Below are positions 4,940-14,563 of a stretch of DNA of 64,000 nucleotides, piece by piece (position 1 is the stretch's first letter; the number at the start of each line of letters is the position of its first letter). The translations under genes and the position numbers were made by a program. This stretch comes from Asinibacterium sp. OR53 (lineage in GTDB: Bacteria; Bacteroidota; Bacteroidia; Chitinophagales; Chitinophagaceae): contig NZ_KI911562.1 of the NCBI RefSeq assembly GCF_000515315.1, positions 1,136,505 through 1,200,504 of the forward strand, read 5' to 3'. Under the pieces are notes generated by a model. That model was not told the origin of the DNA and ran no database searches. It saw nothing but the letters and a program-made list of their open reading frames with translations.

Positions 4940-6013
4940 ATGAAAGTATTAACTGTTAACTTCCCCAGCGTGCTGGAAACCACCTTCGGCAATACCGAAA
5001 ATTCTGCTAAGGACTTGCTGAACGGATTAAAAATCAAAAAAGAAGACACCTGGTACATGGTGGGCAACCTGGCAAAAAGAGCCGGTGTCAATCCCAACCA
5101 TGTCACCAATGCTTCACCACAACTGGAAGACTATGAAGTATTGTTTAAATCGGCGCTTGTTACCGTAGCCGCACAAGTAGAACAACCCGTTGCTATTACA
5201 ATGGGTTTTCCGTTTTCTACGTACAGTGTGTACAAGACAAACGCTGAACAATTCCTCAGTAAAAGGCATTTCATGGCTGAATACGATACCCAGACCTATA
5301 ATGTAAATGGAAGTGTTAAACGAACCACATTCGATGTTGATAATTTTGATGTCATACCGGAGATCGTAGGGTGTATCATCGGACTGAAAAAGATACTCGG
5401 CAACAAACCTCCTACGAATTTCATTGCCATCAGCCTGGGCTTTGGAACCATTGAAGGGGGGATGGCAACGGAAAACGGGCTCGTACACCGCACCTGCTTC
5501 AGCTCTTATGGATTACAATATGCCATCGATAATCTTCACCAGGAGTTAAGCAAGCGCTATTACCTCAAAATGAAAAACGTGCACCAATTGGATGATGCGT
5601 TTCGTAAGGGTTCTATTTTCATCAACCGTGAAAATGTAGATATCAAAGGTTTGCGCAAGAGTATACTCAACCAGTATTTCAGGGAAGTGATCTATTTGCT
5701 GCTGAACAAGTATTTCAACGACCAGGATTTTGAAATCTGTGAAAAAATTTACCTCATGGGTGGCGGCGCTTATTACCCGGAGCTGGTTGAAGCGTTTAAA
5801 AATGAATTCAATGGAAGTATCCAGGTGGAAGTGGCGCCAGAACCTGAAAAATTGGCCAGCATTGGTTACCTGTATAATTCATTCCGTATATCCGATGGCA
5901 AGCAGCAGCGAAGTGTGGGCATCGACATTGGGAATTCAAGCACTACGGTATCGGTATTCCAGGATAAAGACCTGACGCCAGCTACTCCCACACCCACTCC
6001 CCATAAGCAATGA
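4940..6013 (+). CDS. Actin-like ATPase-fold protein (ParM/StbA type), apparently circularly permuted
   Basis: 357 residues, no signal peptide or membrane segment. Elements of the actin/ParM fold are visible but out of the usual order. The protein begins at the strand that normally follows phosphate-1 (MKVLTVNFPSV). It then has the conserved YMVGNLA near 39-45, an ALVTVAA...AITMGFPFSTY segment near 72-92, phosphate-2-like IAISLGFGTIEGG (162-174), and the adenosine motif KIYLMGGGAYYPEL (269-282). The usual C-terminal end EKLASIGYLYNSF follows near 303-315. Only after that, at residues 326-340, comes phosphate-1: VGIDIGNSSTTVSVF with D329. A Thr/Pro-rich tail ends the protein. Phosphate-2 has Ser165 where ParM has a catalytic Asp. 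The gene overlaps the bactofilin gene by ATGA, so the two products are translationally coupled and probably form one cytoskeletal system. Family assignment is firm; permutation is inferred from motif order. Confidence 0.82.
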   Translation: MKVLTVNFPSVLETTFGNTENSAKDLLNGLKIKKEDTWYMVGNLAKRAGVNPNHVTNASPQLEDYEVLFKSALVTVAAQVEQPVAITMGFPFSTYSVYKTNAEQFLSKRHFMAEYDTQTYNVNGSVKRTTFDVDNFDVIPEIVGCIIGLKKILGNKPPTNFIAISLGFGTIEGGMATENGLVHRTCFSSYGLQYAIDNLHQELSKRYYLKMKNVHQLDDAFRKGSIFINRENVDIKGLRKSILNQYFREVIYLLLNKYFNDQDFEICEKIYLMGGGAYYPELVEAFKNEFNGSIQVEVAPEPEKLASIGYLYNSFRISDGKQQRSVGIDIGNSSTTVSVFQDKDLTPATPTPTPHKQ

Positions 6014-6465
6014 GCCTGTTAAGTCTGAAAAATATTTTACAAAGTGCACATACCGCTGGCTTTTTTCTTTCCAGGGGAGTGATCGTACACGGAAACATCA
6101 ACGCTGCCACAGCAGGAAGGATCGACGGCACGGTGATGGGTGATATCGTTGCAGAGGATAAGCTGGTAATTGGCGAAACCGGAGTGGTCAATGGGAATAT
6201 AGATGCGTCTGACCTGCTGGTATTCGGAACAGTGGAAGGAGATATTTCCAGCAGTAAGAAGGCCGTCATTGCCAATACTGCGCGTATCAGGGGTAAACTC
6301 AACTGCCCTGTACTGGATATTGAAGAAGGCGCCCAGGTAGAAGAAGCCCGGATACAACATAAAAAAACACGTCCCAAAAGCATCGCGCCTTTAAAGTCCG
6401 AGCCGGTGACAGGCGTCCAGAAAGGAGTGCCGCAGGAAGAAGACAGTATTGAGTCGTGGTTTTAA
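6010..6465 (+). CDS. Bactofilin (polymer-forming cytoskeletal protein)
   Basis: 151 residues. The core at about 20-115 is a right-handed beta-helix of the bactofilin type: VIVHGNINAATAGRIDGTVM, then short Gly/Val/Ile rungs (GVVNGNIDASDLLVFGTVEG). Disordered tails flank it; the C-terminal one is Lys/Pro-rich. Bactofilins self-assemble without nucleotide into filaments at the inner membrane, acting in cell shape, wall synthesis or polar localisation. The start codon lies in the stop of the actin-like gene (ATGA), so expression is coupled. The gene ends tail to tail with the regulator gene on the other strand, with a 4-nt overlap. Confidence 0.9.
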   Translation: MSLLSLKNILQSAHTAGFFLSRGVIVHGNINAATAGRIDGTVMGDIVAEDKLVIGETGVVNGNIDASDLLVFGTVEGDISSSKKAVIANTARIRGKLNCPVLDIEEGAQVEEARIQHKKTRPKSIAPLKSEPVTGVQKGVPQEEDSIESWF

Positions 6466-7517
6466 TACAACAGGTTCTGCAACTTGCCGATATCGGTAAT
6501 GATGATCTTGCTTTCTTTGATCTGTATCAGTTTTTCTGCTTTAAAATCGCTAAGGGTGCGAATGAGTGATTCCGTTGCAGTACCAATGTAATGAGCAATA
6601 TCGTCCCGGGATATTTCAATGGGGTTCGAACCCCCATTGCTGTTGTATTTACTATGAATGTCTACCAGGGCTTTTGCTACACGTTTTCTGAGAGAACTGT
6701 AAGCCAGGCTGATAAGCCTTTCTTCTTTCTCTTTGATGTTTTGTGTAATGATGTGTATGAATTTGGCGGCCACCTGGATGTCTTTATAGATCATCTGCAA
6801 AAAGTCTTCCCTGGGGATCTGCATGATCTCCGCTTCCTCCAGTATCATGGTACTGTCTGCATAATTCGAATCGTTGATCAATGCATGGTATCCGATGAAA
6901 TCGCCGTCGCTGAAAATATCGGTAATATATTCTTTGCCGTCTTCATGTATTTTAAAAGCTTTCACCTTCCCCCTTACGAGGTAATAGAGATAGCGGGGGC
7001 GCTTGCCCTCATGATATAAAGGTTGTTTTTTGCTGTATGTTTCGATGCTGTATTGCTCTGCCAGCTGACCAAAACTCCCCGTATCTTTTACATCTTTCAG
7101 GAACTGGCTGATACCGGATGGCGACATAGCGTAATGATGTCCCAGGAACTGTATTTTTTTCAGCCTCACTTCAATGGCATTCAGCAGTTCAATGTCTTCA
7201 AAAGGCTTCGTGATATAATCATCAGCCCCCATCTCCATACCTTTCCTAAGATCGGCACGTTCTGTTTTGGCTGTAAGAAAAATAAAGGGGGTGAATTGCG
7301 TCTGGGGGTTTTTGCGGAGCAGGTGCAGTACCCCATATCCATCGAGCTCGGGCATCATAATATCGCAAACGATCAGGTCTGGTTTTTCCCTGATGGCTAC
7401 CTCTACACCCTTCTTACCGTTTTCGGCAGTAAATGTTTTGTAACCGGACATTTCCAGGATTTCCGCGGTATTGTCGCGGATGTCTGTATTATCGTCGATG
7501 ACTAAGATGGTTTTCAT
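6462..7517 (-). CDS. Response regulator fused to a Crp/Fnr-type transcription factor
   Basis: 351 residues. A receiver domain (1-123) has D8/D9, phospho-acceptor D52 and K104. A cyclic-nucleotide-binding-type beta-roll follows (about 150-240), then a dimerisation helix and a Crp-type winged helix (about 275-345). The recognition helix TATESLIRTLS keeps E316 and R320 with the E-x3-R spacing of Fnr/Crp, whose residues read the TGA core of the half-site; the Fnr Ser is Ile here. There is no N-terminal iron-sulfur Cys cluster, so the signal should come by phosphorylation from the adjacent kinase (ATGA overlap). Likely targets are the CTGAT-N4-ATCAG palindromes at 9617, 17353 and 22742. Confidence 0.9.
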   Translation of the reverse strand: MKTILVIDDNTDIRDNTAEILEMSGYKTFTAENGKKGVEVAIREKPDLIVCDIMMPELDGYGVLHLLRKNPQTQFTPFIFLTAKTERADLRKGMEMGADDYITKPFEDIELLNAIEVRLKKIQFLGHHYAMSPSGISQFLKDVKDTGSFGQLAEQYSIETYSKKQPLYHEGKRPRYLYYLVRGKVKAFKIHEDGKEYITDIFSDGDFIGYHALINDSNYADSTMILEEAEIMQIPREDFLQMIYKDIQVAAKFIHIITQNIKEKEERLISLAYSSLRKRVAKALVDIHSKYNSNGGSNPIEISRDDIAHYIGTATESLIRTLSDFKAEKLIQIKESKIIITDIGKLQNLLY

Positions 7518-8752
7518 GAAGCAGGATGATTTACAGGAATGGATATGGTTACACGTGTTCCTTTTTGGAGTTCACTTTCCAATTTTGTTTGACCTTGCAG
7601 CAGATCGGTATAGCGTTTCACAATATGCAGCCCCAGCCCGGTACCGGCAATATTGTTGGCATTGGCTCCCCGGAAGAAACTGGAAAATAAATGCACCTGG
7701 TCTTCAGGTGCAATACCGATACCATGATCAGTTACCGTAATAGAGGCAATTTCATCGTTAACGGAGGTCTGTATGCTGATACCACTGTCTTCATCGGAAA
7801 ACTTAATGGCATTGGTAATGAGGTTAATGATAATATTCCGCAATAATTTTTTATCAGAATGAATGAAATGCTCCCCGGTATAATCTACCCGGATATGCTG
7901 TCCTTTTTTCAACAGACCCTTCATATCTTCCGTGGTGTCATCGATGAATGATTTGAGATCGAATCCTGAGATGGATATTGCTACTTTTCCCTCATCCAAC
8001 TTTCCGAGGGATAAAAAATCTTCCAGTATATCATTCAGGTGGCGTACAGAGCTTTTGATCTTATCGATATGCCTGCTCCGTTTTTCCTGCTCTTCGGTAG
8101 TGGTATATTTTGCTAATAGCGAAGCGGAAGATAAAACGGTGCTGAGAGGCGTTCTGAATTCATGCGAAGCCATAGAAACAAAACGACTTTTGATCTCACT
8201 CAATTGTTTTTCTTTATCAAGCGCTTCGCTCAGTTCTCTTTGCGACTGTTCCAGTTTTTGGAGCGCTTCTTTAAGGATAACCGTTCGTTCTTCTACTTTC
8301 ATTTCCAGCTCGGCGTTCAGCTTCCTGATCTCGGTAGATACTTTTTGCAGTTCTTTTTGCTGCTCCAGCATATTCTGTTCGATCTCTTTCCGGCGTGTAA
8401 TGTCTACGATAAAGGCGATCACGAACAGTTCGTCATCTTTTTTATAATGACTCAGGCTCACTTCAACGGGAATATTTGAGCCGTCTTTTTTTTTGCCAAA
8501 CAGATCCCGCCCCTGGCCCATCACACGGTTGGAAGGGGTTTTGTAAAACCCATCTCTCAAATGGTGATGGTGTGCCTTGAACTGCGCAGGGATCAATATT
8601 TCAATGGGCTGACCAATGATTTCTCTATTCTGGTAGCCAAACATACGCTCTGCTGCAGGGTTTACCAATACGATATTGCCATGATGACCCGTAAGGATGA
8701 TACCTTCGGTGGCATTCTCGAATAAAGACGTCATATGAGCCTGGTCCAGCAT
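7514..8752 (-). CDS. PAS-domain soluble histidine kinase
   Basis: 412 residues from the ATG at 8752 (MLDQAHMTSLFENATEG). The frame is open to 8986, but that extension lies within the upstream RIC-like gene and is not kinase-like. PAS domain about 8-122, coiled coil about 125-187, HisKA with phospho-acceptor H197 in SMASHEFRTPLS, then HATPase_c with LITNAIKFS, DHGIGIAPED and GTGLGLHI. No membrane segment, so it senses a cytoplasmic signal. The PAS resembles FixL (RVMGQGRDLFGKKKDG), but the position of the FixL heme ligand His is Arg76, so heme binding as in FixL is not supported. It partners the receiver-Crp fusion encoded immediately downstream. An oxygen, redox or NO-related input is inferred from context. 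Confidence 0.9.
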   Translation of the reverse strand: MLDQAHMTSLFENATEGIILTGHHGNIVLVNPAAERMFGYQNREIIGQPIEILIPAQFKAHHHHLRDGFYKTPSNRVMGQGRDLFGKKKDGSNIPVEVSLSHYKKDDELFVIAFIVDITRRKEIEQNMLEQQKELQKVSTEIRKLNAELEMKVEERTVILKEALQKLEQSQRELSEALDKEKQLSEIKSRFVSMASHEFRTPLSTVLSSASLLAKYTTTEEQEKRSRHIDKIKSSVRHLNDILEDFLSLGKLDEGKVAISISGFDLKSFIDDTTEDMKGLLKKGQHIRVDYTGEHFIHSDKKLLRNIIINLITNAIKFSDEDSGISIQTSVNDEIASITVTDHGIGIAPEDQVHLFSSFFRGANANNIAGTGLGLHIVKRYTDLLQGQTKLESELQKGTRVTISIPVNHPAS

Positions 8753-8810
8753 AGCGCAAATAGTAGGAGTAAATCTGTTTGTAAATATAATAAAGTGATC
8801 GTAATCTGCA

Positions 8811-9581
8811 TCAGGCCAGCAGGGCCTGTTCCACCTCAACAACCCTGGGTAGTAATATGGTATGCTCCAATTGCAGGTATTGCGTAAGTTCATGATCCAA
8901 TTCCCGCAATTTTGAAAAGCTAACGCGGTGTGTGGTACAGGCATTGCCAGGTAAATAATAATCTTTTGTAATAGAACGCAGCTCATCCAGCCATTTTATC
9001 ACTTCGCTGTATTCCTGCTGCATGGTTTCCTGCCATGGTTTGCGCAATGTTTTCACCAGCAGACCTGCATACGACTCATTGCGCAGGTAGGCATTGGTAA
9101 CCTGTTTGATATAAGGAAAGAAAGATTCTTCTTCGTTGTTCATGCGTTTGTTGATGGCCAATGACAGCTTGTGAAGAATCTCCGGTGTTTTTTCTAACTC
9201 GGGAAATTTTTTGAGATGCCCTTCGAGGAAGCGATTGGTATAATTGACAGTTGTCTCCAGCGCTTTTTTAAAATACCGGTGATAAACGTTTTGAATGAAA
9301 TCGATCAGAAAGCCGGTGCCCCAGTCTTCAAACCTGCTCCCTTGCGGGAGTTGTATCAACCGGCAGGCTTCTTCCAGTTCAAGTAATATAACAGCAGTAT
9401 CCAGTTGCTTGGATTCGCATACCATTTCCAGCGGCCATTTGCCTCCACAGCAGAATTCGATATCATATTTGAGAAATACATCGGCTGTACGGTAATCTTT
9501 CTGCACAATTTCCGTAACAGGCATTTGCTTATTTATCAATGGCAACTGATCGTCTTTGCCAGAAATGTTGGATGGCGTCAT
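8811..9581 (-). CDS. RIC/ScdA-like iron-sulfur repair protein with degenerate di-iron site
   Basis: 256 residues from the ATG at 9581. The ATG at 9611 is in frame, but a TAnnTTTG box lies between the two. DUF542 (ScdA N-terminal) domain about 18-60 keeps the Cys pair in YDIEFCCGGK (C44, C45). A hemerythrin-like four-helix bundle follows. Compared with YtfE-type RIC and with the second copy at 17469, the bundle keeps the first His (H101) and both Glu ligands (E150, E239). Three His ligands are replaced: Arg146 and Tyr at 191 and 235. A working di-iron centre is therefore doubtful. It is 58 nt upstream of the PAS kinase, so RIC-like protein, kinase and regulator probably form one operon. A repair role is family knowledge; a sensory role is only a possibility. 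Confidence 0.82.
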   Translation of the reverse strand: MTPSNISGKDDQLPLINKQMPVTEIVQKDYRTADVFLKYDIEFCCGGKWPLEMVCESKQLDTAVILLELEEACRLIQLPQGSRFEDWGTGFLIDFIQNVYHRYFKKALETTVNYTNRFLEGHLKKFPELEKTPEILHKLSLAINKRMNNEEESFFPYIKQVTNAYLRNESYAGLLVKTLRKPWQETMQQEYSEVIKWLDELRSITKDYYLPGNACTTHRVSFSKLRELDHELTQYLQLEHTILLPRVVEVEQALLA

Positions 9582-9674: not shown

Positions 9675-9682
9675 TACTTTTG
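9675..9682 (+). promoter_or_regulatory. -7 box of the cytochrome c/nos operon
   Basis: TACTTTTG matches TAnnTTTG. It would give a leader of about 50 nt before the ATG at 9740. A weaker Fnr-like sequence, TTGAG-N4-GTCAT, lies at 9639-9652, about 43 bp before the predicted start. Confidence 0.5.
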
Positions 9683-9739
9683 ATCAATAAAAGACAAAAG
9701 ACTCTCTTAATAAACGTGCATTCACTAAAAAATAATACC

Positions 9740-10210
9740 ATGCAAATCATCCGACCATTAACGATCTGTTTACTCTCCGGAACCCTACTGGCAGTGGCTT
9801 GTTCAGAAGGGGTCAAAAAAGACGAAAAACCGGTAGATGTTCAGGAAATGACAAAAAACCAACCTGAAACACATGGCGCCGAATTAAAAGAATCCGATGT
9901 AGTTGTTTCAAACCCATTGAATACAGAATGGGTAAGCGCCGGTAAAGGCATTTATGAAATGAAGTGCCAGTCCTGCCACCGCCTTACCGGTGAAAAACTG
10001 GTGGGACCAGGATGGAAAGATGTTACCAAACGCAGAAAGCCTGTTTGGATCATGAATATGATTACCAACGTAGACATGATGCTGGAGAAGGACCCCGATG
10101 CACAAAAACTGCTGGAACAGTGTATGGTACGTATGCCCAACCAGAACCTGGCCAAAGAAGACGCCCGCAAAGTGCTGGAATTCATGCGGAACAACGACGG
10201 AGAAAAATAA
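9740..10210 (+). CDS. Monoheme cytochrome c lipoprotein, nos-cluster associated
   Basis: 156 residues from the ATG at 9740 (MQIIRPLTICLL). A signal peptide with lipobox LAVAC puts the lipidated Cys at residue 18. A low-complexity acidic linker leads to a class I cytochrome c domain with CQSCH (C76, C79, H80) and a probable Met axial ligand in VRMPNQN. Cytochrome c genes of this kind precede clade II nosZ in many Bacteroidota, and they are thought to pass electrons to NosZ. The upstream frame back to 9680 is rejected because it lacks a signal and overlaps the promoter. The nosZ gene follows after 24 nt. Confidence 0.9.
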   Translation: MQIIRPLTICLLSGTLLAVACSEGVKKDEKPVDVQEMTKNQPETHGAELKESDVVVSNPLNTEWVSAGKGIYEMKCQSCHRLTGEKLVGPGWKDVTKRRKPVWIMNMITNVDMMLEKDPDAQKLLEQCMVRMPNQNLAKEDARKVLEFMRNNDGEK

Positions 10211-10234
10211 CCCTATAACGCAAATAACAGACAG

Positions 10235-12244
10235 ATGAAATTCTTTTCCCACAAAACCCTGCTTGCAACACTGGTGCTGGCAGGTGCATCCTTGCAAATG
10301 TTGGGATGCAAACCCAAAGGCTCACAGGCTGCTATCAGCGGTGATGCTGCTTTGAAAACCTATGTTGCACCCGGTAAATACGATGAGTTTTACGATTTTG
10401 TTTCGGGAGGATTCAGCGGACAGATGTCGGTCTATGGTTTGCCATCCGGCCGGCTGCTCCGTGTGATCCCGGTTTTCTCTGTAGATCCGGAAAAAGGATA
10501 TGGCTACAGTGAAGAAAGCAAAGCCATGCTGAGCACATCCAACGGTTTTATTCCCTGGGATGACTTGCACCATATTGCATTATCAGAAACAAATGGCCTG
10601 CACGATGGAAGATGGGTGTTTGCCAATGCCAACAATACGCCACGTATCGCAAGGGTTGACCTGAAAACTTTCCGCACTGTTGAAATCATTGAGATACCCA
10701 ATAGTGCCGGCAACCACTCGTCACCATTCATTACGGAGAATTCAGAGTATGTAGTGGCAGGCACCCGTTTCAGTATACCCCTCGGAGATAATACCGATGT
10801 ACCGATTAGTTCTTATAAACAAAATTTCAAAGGAACAGTTAGCTTCATCAACATAGATAAAAATTCAGGTGAAATGAACCTGGCTTTCCAGATACTGACC
10901 CCTGGTGTCAACTTCGACCTGGCGCGTGCCGGCAAAGGGAAGTCACATGGCTGGGTATTCTTCAGTTGCTATAACTCAGAAAAAGCCAACACTTTGCTCG
11001 AAGTGAATGCATCTCAGAAGGATAAGGATTTTATTATGGCAGTGAACTGGAAAAAAGCGGAAGAATACCTGAAAGCCGGTAAAGGCGTTAAAAAAACAGT
11101 GAAATATACCCATAATCAATACGACGAGAAAAAACATTCGGCTACTTCAACTACTATGAATGAAGTATTGGTACTGGATCCGAAAGATTGTCCCGATATG
11201 GTTTATTTCATGCCCTGTCCCAAATCACCCCACGGATGCGATACCGATCCTACCGGTGAATACATAGTAGGCAGTGGCAAGCTGGCGGCTACCATTCCGG
11301 TGTTTTCCTTCACCAAAATACAGAAAGCGATTGCCGATAAAAATTTCGATGGCACGTATGACGATATCCCTGTGTTGAAGTACGATGCGGTCTTGCACGG
11401 AGAAGTGCAGAAACCAGGATTAGGCCCGCTGCATACAGAGTTCGACGATCAGGGAAATGCGTATACTTCTTTCTTTGTTTCATCAGAAATTGTGAAATGG
11501 AATATCAAAGACCTGAAAGTACTCGATCGTGTACCTACCTATTATTCTATCGGACACCTGAGTGTTCCAGGCGGACCTACCCGGAAACCCTGGGGTAAGT
11601 ATGTGATCGCTTATAACAAGATCACGAAAGACCGTTACCTGCCTACCGGACCGGAATTGTCGCAAAGTGCACAGCTCTATGATATCAGCGGTGATAAGAT
11701 GAAATTGCTGCTTGATTTCCCTACCATAGGAGAACCGCACTATGGAGAGGCCATCCCTGCAGAGCTGGTAATGAAGAACAGCCAGAAGATCTATAAGATA
11801 GAAGAAAATGCCCACCCGGCTGCAGCCAAAGGCGATAATTATACGAGGGTAGAACGCAAAGGCAATGAAGTGCATGTGTACATGACTGCTATCCGTTCGC
11901 ACTTTACGCCTGATAATATAGAAGGGGTGAAGCTGGGAGAAACCGTCTATTTCCATGTTACCAACCTGGAGCAGGACTGGGACATTCCGCATGGCTTTGC
12001 CATCAAGGGCGCCAACAATGCAGAGCTGCTGATCATGCCAGGCGAAACACAAACATTGAAATGGGTACCTGAAAAAGCGGGTGTGTTTCCCTTCTATTGC
12101 ACCGACTTCTGTTCTGCGCTTCACCAGGAAATGCAAGGATACATTAGGGTAAGCGCTCCCGGATCGAATGTTCCTATCATATACGGAACCGGTACAATTA
12201 AAGCGGCGGCTGATTATAAAGCAACCGATGGAAAAACCAAATAA
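10235..12244 (+). CDS. nosZ: Nitrous-oxide reductase, clade II (Sec-type)
   Basis: 669 residues. Reduces N2O to N2 in the periplasm. The N-terminus is a Sec/lipoprotein signal (LQMLGC, C25) rather than the twin-arginine signal of clade I. The seven-bladed propeller carries CuZ histidines, for example DLHH (112-113), H123 in NGLHDG, PHGCDTDPTG, GPLHTEFDD and GHLSVPGG. The C-terminal cupredoxin holds CuA: H586 in DIPHGF and C622, C626, H630, M633 in FYCTDFCSALHQEM. All expected copper ligands are present, so it should be active. It is followed by a strong hairpin and then nosL, nosD, nosF and nosY on the same strand. Expression is probably driven from the promoter at 9675. Confidence 0.97.
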   Translation: MKFFSHKTLLATLVLAGASLQMLGCKPKGSQAAISGDAALKTYVAPGKYDEFYDFVSGGFSGQMSVYGLPSGRLLRVIPVFSVDPEKGYGYSEESKAMLSTSNGFIPWDDLHHIALSETNGLHDGRWVFANANNTPRIARVDLKTFRTVEIIEIPNSAGNHSSPFITENSEYVVAGTRFSIPLGDNTDVPISSYKQNFKGTVSFINIDKNSGEMNLAFQILTPGVNFDLARAGKGKSHGWVFFSCYNSEKANTLLEVNASQKDKDFIMAVNWKKAEEYLKAGKGVKKTVKYTHNQYDEKKHSATSTTMNEVLVLDPKDCPDMVYFMPCPKSPHGCDTDPTGEYIVGSGKLAATIPVFSFTKIQKAIADKNFDGTYDDIPVLKYDAVLHGEVQKPGLGPLHTEFDDQGNAYTSFFVSSEIVKWNIKDLKVLDRVPTYYSIGHLSVPGGPTRKPWGKYVIAYNKITKDRYLPTGPELSQSAQLYDISGDKMKLLLDFPTIGEPHYGEAIPAELVMKNSQKIYKIEENAHPAAAKGDNYTRVERKGNEVHVYMTAIRSHFTPDNIEGVKLGETVYFHVTNLEQDWDIPHGFAIKGANNAELLIMPGETQTLKWVPEKAGVFPFYCTDFCSALHQEMQGYIRVSAPGSNVPIIYGTGTIKAAADYKATDGKTK

Positions 12245-12254
12245 GCAAATCTTG

Positions 12255-12282
12255 TGCGGTCTCTTATTATAAAGAGACCGCA
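12255..12282 (+). other. Stable intergenic hairpin between nosZ and the nosL fusion gene
   Basis: A perfect 11-bp stem (TGCGGTCTCTT at 12255-12265 with AAGAGACCGCA at 12272-12282) and a 6-nt loop. There is no U-run after it, so it is not a typical terminator. It more likely protects the 3' end of nosZ mRNA or lowers expression of the accessory genes relative to nosZ. Confidence 0.65.
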
Positions 12283-12297
12283 TATTAACCTATCAAT

Positions 12298-13326
12298 ATG
12301 AACAATCAATTGAGTATTGTATCGCGGATACTGGTGGCATTTGCATCAGGAGCATTGATTGTTGTTTTCTTTCTTCCTGCATGGCGTATTGATCTTTTTG
12401 CGCCACAGTACCCGGAGGGACTGACCATGAATATATGGATCAACGGAATATCGGGTGATGTGGATGTGATCAACGGCCTCAATCATTATATAGGCATGAA
12501 ACATATTACAGTTGCTATGTTTCCGGAATTCCGTTTCCTGCCTTATGTGGTGTTGTTTTTCATGTTACTGGGTGTAACAGTAGCTATTACCGGCAAGCGA
12601 AAGGTCTTATTCCTGTATTTATTACTCACCCTCCTGGGCGGGTTACTGGCTATGTATGATTTTTACCAGTGGGGCTATGATTACGGGCATAACCTGGATC
12701 CAAAAGCGCCTATACAAGTGCCGGGACTTTCCTATCAGCCTCCATTGTTAGGACATAAGCGGTTGTTGAATTTCGATGCCTATTCCCTGCCCGGTGTGGG
12801 TGGATGGGTAGTGATCGCTGCCGGCTGTCTCTCTTTCGTGGTATGGTTTATGGAATGGTATCGCCATAGAAAAGTAAGCAGGCGGGCGGCGCCTGCTGTG
12901 GCTGTAGTTTGCATAATGCTGTTTTTGCTGAACGCATGTTCTCCTGCATCACCTGAACCCTTTCAGCCAGGAAAAGATTTTTGTACGTACTGTAAAATGG
13001 GCATCAGCGATACCCGGTATGGAGGCGAGGTCATCACCAGAAAAGGAAAGACATACAAATTCGATGACCTGAAATGTATGATTTCCTATATGCGCATGAA
13101 TGACCGGAAAGATAATGGACTGGCGCAATCCTGGGTCGTTGATTTTGATCAGCCGAATACTTTTCTCAAGGCCCAGGATGCCAGTTTTTTAAACGGTAAC
13201 ACATTGAAAAGTCCGATGGGTGGCAATACAGCCGGCTTTAAAACAAAAGCTGCGGCCCAGGCAAAAATAGTTGATACATCTTATGTTGTACTGGACTGGG
13301 AAGCTGTACAGGCTAAATTGAAATAA
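12298..13326 (+). CDS. nosL: Fusion of a polytopic membrane domain with NosL copper chaperone
   Basis: 342 residues. Residues 1-190 contain about four membrane helices (near 10-28, 82-98, 103-120, 168-186) joined by a periplasmic loop. A fifth hydrophobic segment (about 198-213) ends in LLNAC, which looks like a lipobox. Residues about 215-342 form the NosL domain with CTYC (C229, C232) and the Cys-Met pair C260-M261 in DDLKCMISYM. NosL delivers Cu(I) for assembly of the copper centres of NosZ. In many Bacteroidota the membrane protein and the NosL lipoprotein are separate genes. Here there is no stop or frame change between them, so it is a true fusion unless the signal is processed internally. 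Confidence 0.88.
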   Translation: MNNQLSIVSRILVAFASGALIVVFFLPAWRIDLFAPQYPEGLTMNIWINGISGDVDVINGLNHYIGMKHITVAMFPEFRFLPYVVLFFMLLGVTVAITGKRKVLFLYLLLTLLGGLLAMYDFYQWGYDYGHNLDPKAPIQVPGLSYQPPLLGHKRLLNFDAYSLPGVGGWVVIAAGCLSFVVWFMEWYRHRKVSRRAAPAVAVVCIMLFLLNACSPASPEPFQPGKDFCTYCKMGISDTRYGGEVITRKGKTYKFDDLKCMISYMRMNDRKDNGLAQSWVVDFDQPNTFLKAQDASFLNGNTLKSPMGGNTAGFKTKAAAQAKIVDTSYVVLDWEAVQAKLK

Positions 13327-13330
13327 AGTA

Positions 13331-14563
13331 ATGCGGTTTTTATTCCTCATATCGTGGTTGATCTGTTCACATGTAACGCTGGCCCGCACTATTGTAGCGG
13401 GCGTTGGGCAACCTGTGAAAACATTGACAGCCGCTGTGCAACTGGCCAGGGACGGCGATACCATAAGGCTCCGCAATGGCGTATACAAAGAAGGCAGGAT
13501 AGTGATTACCCGGCCGGTCACTGTTTTGGGTGAAGGCAATACCATATTAGATGGTGATCATAAACAGGAATTACTCGTTATCAGCGGGAGCCATGTTACT
13601 ATTAAAAAATTGCAATTCCATCATGCGGGTTATTCGGCATTGAACGATTATGCTGCGGTAAAACTGATTGATGCCAGTTATGTATTACTGGAAGATAACC
13701 TGGTATATGATGCTTATTTCGCTTTTCATATTTCTAATGCAGCCTACTGCACTATCCGCAACAACAGGATCATAGGGATACCCAAGACGGAGCAACTGAC
13801 CGGCAATGGCATTCATTTATGGAAGAGTAACCATGCATTGATAGAAGGCAACCAGGTAACCGGCTACCGCGATGGCATCTATTTTGAATTTGTAACGGAA
13901 TCGGTTATCCGGAAGAACCTGAGTGAAAAAAATATCCGGTATGGCTTGCATTTCATGTTTTCCCATGGTGATCATTATATCGAAAATATTTTTCGTAACA
14001 ACGGAGCCGGGGTTGCTGTGATGTATTCCAAACATGTGACCATGGAGCATAACCACTTTGAAGCAAACTGGGGCGCTTCGTCATATGGACTTTTGCTGAA
14101 AGAGATCACAGATAGCCATATTGTTAGCAACCTATTCCTTAAGAACACAACGGGTATTTATATGGAGGGCGCGAGCAGGATAGAGATAGAGCGCAATATT
14201 TTCAGAAATAACGGCTGGGCTGTTAAAGTACAGGCGAGTTGCGACGATAACGTTTTTCATCACAACAATTTTTTTGGCAACAGTTTCGATTTGGCTACTA
14301 ATGGCACCATGGTGCTGAACAAATTGCACAACAATTATTGGGATAAATATGAAGGCTATGATATCGATAGAAACGGGGTTGGCGACGTACCCTATCACCC
14401 GGTAAGTATGTATTCCATGATTGTGGAGCAAACGCCCGGAACCATGATCCTTATGAGAAGCTTCATGGTAACCCTTCTCGATAAGGCGGAAAAGGCCATA
14501 CCCAGCCTCACACCGGAGAACCTGGTAGACCGTCAGCCGATGATAAAGCCATTGAAAATATGA
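13331..14563 (+). CDS. nosD: NosD, periplasmic copper-processing beta-helix protein
   Basis: 410 residues with an N-terminal signal peptide (about 1-18, cut after TLA). The rest is a right-handed parallel beta-helix (NosD/CASH repeats), with many rungs such as YCTIRNNRIIGI, HALIEGNQVTGY and ITDSHIVSNLFLKN. NosD is required for maturation of the CuZ site and works with the NosFY transporter. It starts 4 nt after the nosL fusion stop and overlaps nosF by ATGA, so the gene order nosL-D-F-Y is translationally coupled. Confidence 0.93.
   Translation: MRFLFLISWLICSHVTLARTIVAGVGQPVKTLTAAVQLARDGDTIRLRNGVYKEGRIVITRPVTVLGEGNTILDGDHKQELLVISGSHVTIKKLQFHHAGYSALNDYAAVKLIDASYVLLEDNLVYDAYFAFHISNAAYCTIRNNRIIGIPKTEQLTGNGIHLWKSNHALIEGNQVTGYRDGIYFEFVTESVIRKNLSEKNIRYGLHFMFSHGDHYIENIFRNNGAGVAVMYSKHVTMEHNHFEANWGASSYGLLLKEITDSHIVSNLFLKNTTGIYMEGASRIEIERNIFRNNGWAVKVQASCDDNVFHHNNFFGNSFDLATNGTMVLNKLHNNYWDKYEGYDIDRNGVGDVPYHPVSMYSMIVEQTPGTMILMRSFMVTLLDKAEKAIPSLTPENLVDRQPMIKPLKI

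Follow-up and report, generated by a model that had tools for sequence, protein, structure and literature searches.

The window analyzed here is a stretch of 64,000 nucleotides of Asinibacterium sp. OR53, and the site of interest within it belongs to the 3.7-Mb main contig of a single-contig genome. On its forward strand lies an actin-like gene (4940-6013, 357 aa) followed by a bactofilin gene (6010-6465, 151 aa). The actin ORF is intact, and an in-frame TAG stands immediately 5' of its ATG. As a first reading made from the sequence alone had claimed, the two genes overlap in an ATGA at 6010-6013, where the TGA stop codon of the actin gene (6011-6013) overlaps the ATG of the bactofilin gene. 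The product of 6010-6465 matched the Pfam Bactofilin family (PF04519; 2.6e-23, 82.5 bits, curated cut-off 27.9) over a beta-helix domain at residues 19-111 (6064-6342, forward strand), and it ends in Trp-Phe (6457-6462), a short conserved motif closing a variable tail. The actin-like protein matched Pfam ALP_N over residues 5-141 (4952-5362, forward strand; 1.3e-10), which correspond to positions 18-145 of the 148-position profile and end at the catalytic-Glu position E141. Because this match begins only at profile position 18, the phosphate-1 (P1) part of the domain is absent from the N-terminus. Pfam MreB-like_C matched residues 187-278 just below its curated cut-off (2.8e-5), and Pfam FtsA gave a weak match at the C-terminus (residues 326-345). 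Further forward-strand features are a phosphate-2 (P2) segment (residues 162-173, 5423-5458), an adenosine motif GGG (residues 274-276, 5759-5767), and a C-terminal P1 beta hairpin (residues 326-340, 5915-5959) of the sequence VGIDIGNSSTTVSVF, with G327, D329, G331, N332, and T335; the last two elements were found where the sequence-only reading had placed them. The 300 nt preceding the actin ORF contained no P1 motif when all three forward frames were read. A PDB search with the window protein as a single sequence gave no meaningful match, and an AlphaFold model from the single sequence had a pLDDT of 35, too low for the model to be used.

We examined the order of the fold elements with an alignment of twelve diverse family members, used both as found (unrotated) and rotated, and took ten ordinary plasmid ParM-like proteins as the canonical reference. 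In the unrotated comparison, hhalign placed the family on the reference in two pieces; the body (3-312) fell on canonical positions 29-353, and residues 321-340 fell on canonical positions 4-23, which are exactly the P1 hairpin. When the unrotated alignment was cut at approximately 40 points, the hhalign score rose to a sharp peak of 177.2 at cuts 316-320 and fell off on both sides, the unrotated score being 152.9. At these cuts only, the alignment to the canonical proteins ran end to end (positions 3-352 of 368, E 2.6e-24). As a control, 60 rotated alignments with column-shuffled tails scored 154.4 +/- 1.4 (maximum 159.1), the true rotation lying about 16 SD higher. The rotated window protein matched ALP_N at positions 1-145 in one stretch with 48.0 bits, compared with 42.1 bits for the unrotated protein. 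The nearest solved structure, pCBH ParM (6ixw), was matched from chain residue 28 at 5.5e-8 without rotation and at 3.6e-8 with it, and a chromosomal ParM (8x1i) was also among the nearest solved structures. In addition, the rotated profile gave a weak match across the junction to CorM (PDB 9rmi; E 0.0097, chain 46-193), and the C-terminus of the unrotated profile gave a separate weak match to the N-terminal P1 of DnaK (E 0.34).

The same arrangement was found throughout the family. Close to the C-terminus, G-[ILVM]-D-[LIM]-G-N is present in each of the 50 homologues, and their first 70 residues are in every case free of a DxG..T/S motif; the canonical order, with P1 at the N-terminus before P2 and the adenosine motif, occurs in none of them, P1 being C-terminal in 50 of 50. 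The rotated order first proposed for the window protein is thus borne out by both the scan and the homologues, the C-terminal DxGN..T/S segment about whose conservation that proposal had asked is conserved, and a second P1 at the N-terminus, named beforehand as the sign that would speak against it, appears in none. An artefact, whether from a frameshift or rearrangement in this one gene or from a DxGN falling at the C-terminus by chance, is refuted by these fifty homologues from across the phylum with their C-terminal G-x-D-x-G-N; the column-shuffled control argues against it as well, and a frameshift or an overlooked upstream P1 is further ruled out by the intact ORF and the upstream frames, leaving this explanation a negligible probability. 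At the level of sequence, we regard it as nearly certain that the window protein is a ParM/ALP-type actin whose P1 hairpin has been relocated from the N- to the C-terminus.

D329 of P1 and E141 are invariant in the alignment of twelve diverse members, and G274-G276 as well as G327, D329, G331, and N332 are invariant in the family alignments. P2 reads S-L-G-F-G-T-I-E in the window protein, with Ser165 in place of the canonical Asp, whereas canonical members have D-x-G. The P2 segment predicted at residues 162-174 stood as to its position (about 161-173) but not as to its motif, for the usual Asp is missing from all 50 homologues (S in 47, G in 2, N in 1); it is present in most of the ten canonical ParM-like proteins. 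In actin and ParM this Asp coordinates the metal-bound water, and its loss suggests that ATP hydrolysis by the permuted actin is probably slow or altered. This bears on the composite cytoskeleton put forward in the sequence-only reading, in which the permuted actin would form a dynamic ATP-dependent filament of its own that runs along, or is bundled with, static bactofilin filaments. Filament-forming ParMs are indeed its closest solved relatives, bactofilins are polymers, and the two genes are coupled. However, the P2 Asp of dynamic ParM-type ATPases is gone from the whole set, which speaks against fast turnover, and we consider such a composite possible but rather unlikely.

Profile sampling covered Bacteroidota genomes only. 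Within Chitinophagaceae, the family of the source organism, 22 of the 399 sampled genomes and 13 of the 104 genera gave matches. Every full-length match in the order sample fell within this family, and one marginal partial match was seen (G558). In the wider samples, carrier genomes beyond the order but within the class numbered 4, and those beyond the class but within the phylum 18; these matches cover practically the whole model, the C-terminal P1 included. No relative of the permuted actin was found in the 36 same-genus genomes searched or in the plasmids, phages, and viral contigs searched, and a contig scan with the window protein alone had as its sole match a near-identical protein of Sediminibacterium magnilacihabitans DSM 22423. 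Pfam ALP_N detected no ordinary ALP in 101 relatives, a count that is uninformative because the permuted copies were missed too. The source genome has a second actin-bactofilin pair (L002; G000:C1:2488603-2492628), whose actin is approximately 57% identical to that in the window and is again directly followed by a bactofilin gene. After GN, the P1 of this second actin, GIDLGNAFSALSFF, departs from that of the window copy, and the bactofilin of the second pair ends in RWI; these differences suggest divergent roles for the two pairs. We also considered the permuted actin as a replacement for MreB and rejected this, since MreB was found in 16 of 16 carriers tested, which makes the actin-bactofilin pair an extra system.

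The bactofilin neighbor, whose conservation was likewise at issue in the sequence-only reading, proved to be a steady companion. A bactofilin gene lies 3' of the permuted actin in 42 of 51 loci, both copies of the source genome included, and nine loci have no bactofilin adjoining the actin. In Chitinophagaceae it is downstream in 27 of 27 loci, mostly overlapping or no more than about 30 nt away; the source genome's first copy, that of the window, is represented among these by the near-identical L007. In the rest of the phylum it is downstream in 15 of 24 loci, with a TPR gene intervening in two. Furthermore, actin and bactofilin distances are correlated (r 0.80, 38 pairs), which fits joint descent, although vertical inheritance is expected to account for part of such a correlation. 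At L056, L058, and L072 (9113-10246), the gene for a 377-aa protein, TPR-like by eye, separates that of the permuted actin from that of the bactofilin, and its product is possibly a third component. L064 and L065 have a permuted actin without a bactofilin neighbor and, upstream in the same orientation, a gene for a protein of approximately 1235 aa. The source genome carries two more bactofilin genes, arranged divergently at G000:C1:3177103-3181005 (L005, L006), without an actin and without a terminal Trp; a similar divergent pair occurs in G077 and G118.

We next compared the actin-linked bactofilins with 41 unlinked ones, drawn from two sources, the same bacterial family and those carriers that possess unlinked bactofilins. 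A Trp lies within the last three residues of 37 of 40 linked bactofilins and of 0 of 41 unlinked ones (Fisher p ~6e-20, a value that is indicative only because the sequences are related). The chain ends in Trp-Phe-COOH in 25 of these 37, and the rest of the tail is variable. Conversely, a membrane-targeting-like N-terminal motif, M[hydrophobic]..K, is found in 2 of 40 linked but 32 of 41 unlinked bactofilins; the window bactofilin has no such MFxK-like peptide. Canonical bactofilins, such as BacA, CcmA, and BacM, share the bactofilin domain with the linked proteins, but they have an N-terminal membrane peptide and tails that are mostly poorly conserved (PMC12448750), unlike the linked ones, which lack the membrane peptide in 38 of 40 cases and end in Trp. 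By these sequence features, the actin-linked bactofilins are a distinct class, marked by a terminal Trp and by a membrane motif that is nearly always missing. The terminal Trp is not confined to bactofilins. Three actins with no adjoining bactofilin (L037-L039) have a Pro/Ala-rich tail of their own of approximately 92-94 residues that ends in ..KTGMW or ..ISGTW, and the sole bactofilin found elsewhere in their genomes is without the Trp. The six other actins lacking a bactofilin neighbor (L045-L047, L049, L051, L054) have no such Trp. Since the Trp is found either on the linked bactofilins or on the tails of the L037-L039 actins, it travels with the permuted actin.

What the Trp does can be read in more than one way. 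The MFSKQAKS-type N-terminal peptide is a known membrane anchor (PMC12448750), and loss of the N-terminal motif accompanies gain of the Trp, L050 and L052, the only linked bactofilins with the motif retained, being two of just three without Trp. The terminal Trp might therefore be a membrane anchor that has replaced the N-terminal amphipathic peptide, with the actin acting as a separate regulator. Against this, a single Trp or Trp-Phe anchors weakly, the residues before it are often acidic (SIESWF, DFGIDW, LSTIEW), and the tracking of the motif with actin linkage would be left unexplained; we hold this anchor to be unlikely. The Trp could also bind a third protein. The reading that we prefer is that the permuted actin is the most likely docking site of the Trp(-Phe) tail, by analogy with the tail of FtsZ on FtsA.

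Around the permutation, the gene linkage, the Trp tail, and the absences of the membrane motif and the P2 Asp, all of which are features of the sequences themselves, we propose the following model. In a ParM/ALP-branch actin, the N-terminal beta1-P1-beta2 hairpin would have moved behind the C-terminal helix, the new termini being located at the beta2-beta3 turn. The permuted protein probably binds ATP, and the hairpin, as judged from the alignment, most likely sits in the P1 pocket and completes the nucleotide site in cis, within the same subunit. Two features make closure in cis the most likely arrangement: in the actin fold both chain ends lie side by side in subdomain IA, and body and hairpin are joined by a short, mostly constant linker (median 18 residues between the GY motif and GxDxG). 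The hairpin stands at the chain end, where a swap in trans is allowed, and it could in principle enter the next subunit and link a polymer as in donor-strand exchange, but the same short linker and adjacent termini make such a domain swap very unlikely. Loss of the P2 Asp would alter Mg2+ coordination, render hydrolysis slow or absent, and give a long-lived nucleotide-bound state. The bactofilin, with its N-terminal membrane-targeting motif gone and a C-terminal Trp(-Phe) tail acquired, would be bound by the actin, whose nucleotide state would set the place or time of assembly of the bactofilin scaffold, possibly for cell shape or organization. The chances seem about even that a permuted Bacteroidota actin lineage and a specialized bactofilin are joined in this manner by the Trp peptide, with a nucleotide-dependent actin controlling a nucleotide-free scaffold. 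For the full mechanistic model, in which one gene of the pair specifies a permuted actin-like nucleotide switch and this switch serves a dedicated bactofilin scaffold, we would put the probability at roughly 55%. A role as an adaptor, as FtsA has for FtsZ, fits the evidence equally well as a co-filament.

Among known systems, ParM/StbA and ALP_N (PF17989) proteins have the same fold elements, give the best sequence matches, and align over their full length once the sequence is rotated; the permuted actin differs from them in its C-terminal hairpin, its replaced P2 Asp, and its bactofilin partner. ParMRC-type segregation actins are located on plasmids or phages and have the DNA-binding adaptor ParR, unlike the permuted actin with its main-contig location, its lack of plasmid or phage matches, and its bactofilin neighbor. 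CorM, a relative of ParM that is encoded on the chromosome of cyanobacteria and serves their cell shape, is a precedent for the recruitment of a ParM as a shape-giving cytoskeleton, but it has the normal order in the matched stretch and is not known to have a bactofilin partner. The working analogy is with FtsA and FtsZ, in which an actin-like gene stands beside that of a polymer-forming partner with a conserved C-terminal peptide. The FtsZ peptide docks on FtsA, and similarly a PilN peptide docks on PilM. The permuted actin nevertheless differs from FtsA in that no FtsA-specific subdomain was recognized, its partner is a bactofilin and not FtsZ, and the terminal motif is another one. Chromosomal ParMs are already known (PMC12270681). 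BeeR, which recently added another filament to the known bacterial actins (PMC11929497), and MreB belong to the bacterial actin superfamily like the permuted actin, but they have the normal order.

In the open-access literature, outside which most subscription journals and preprints lie, we found no described cytoskeletal actin in this order, as the sequence-only reading had supposed, and neither a permuted bacterial actin nor an actin-bactofilin operon. Membership in the actin superfamily is familiar, and the permuted order and the bactofilin partnership appear to be new. Few folds are as conserved as that of actin, and we found no described natural circular permutant of it. The existence of a conserved permuted family shows that the nucleotide-binding pieces need not follow one order, and it yields new termini at another site on the subunit. 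If the model is true, the pair would provide an early, concrete example of actin-type and bactofilin-type cytoskeletons working together, and the short terminal motif and steady linkage make this cooperation directly testable.

Other genes surround the pair in the window. The reverse strand at 6462-8986 encodes a PAS histidine kinase and, beside it, a response regulator carrying a fused CRP-type domain (receiver, cNMP-binding, and HTH). These genes run in the opposite direction to the actin pair, and a ScdA/hemerythrin-like gene is nearby. On the forward strand, 9680-14563 appears by eye to hold a nitrous oxide reduction cluster, comprising genes for a cytochrome c, a NosZ-like lipoprotein, and NosL-like and NosD-like proteins.
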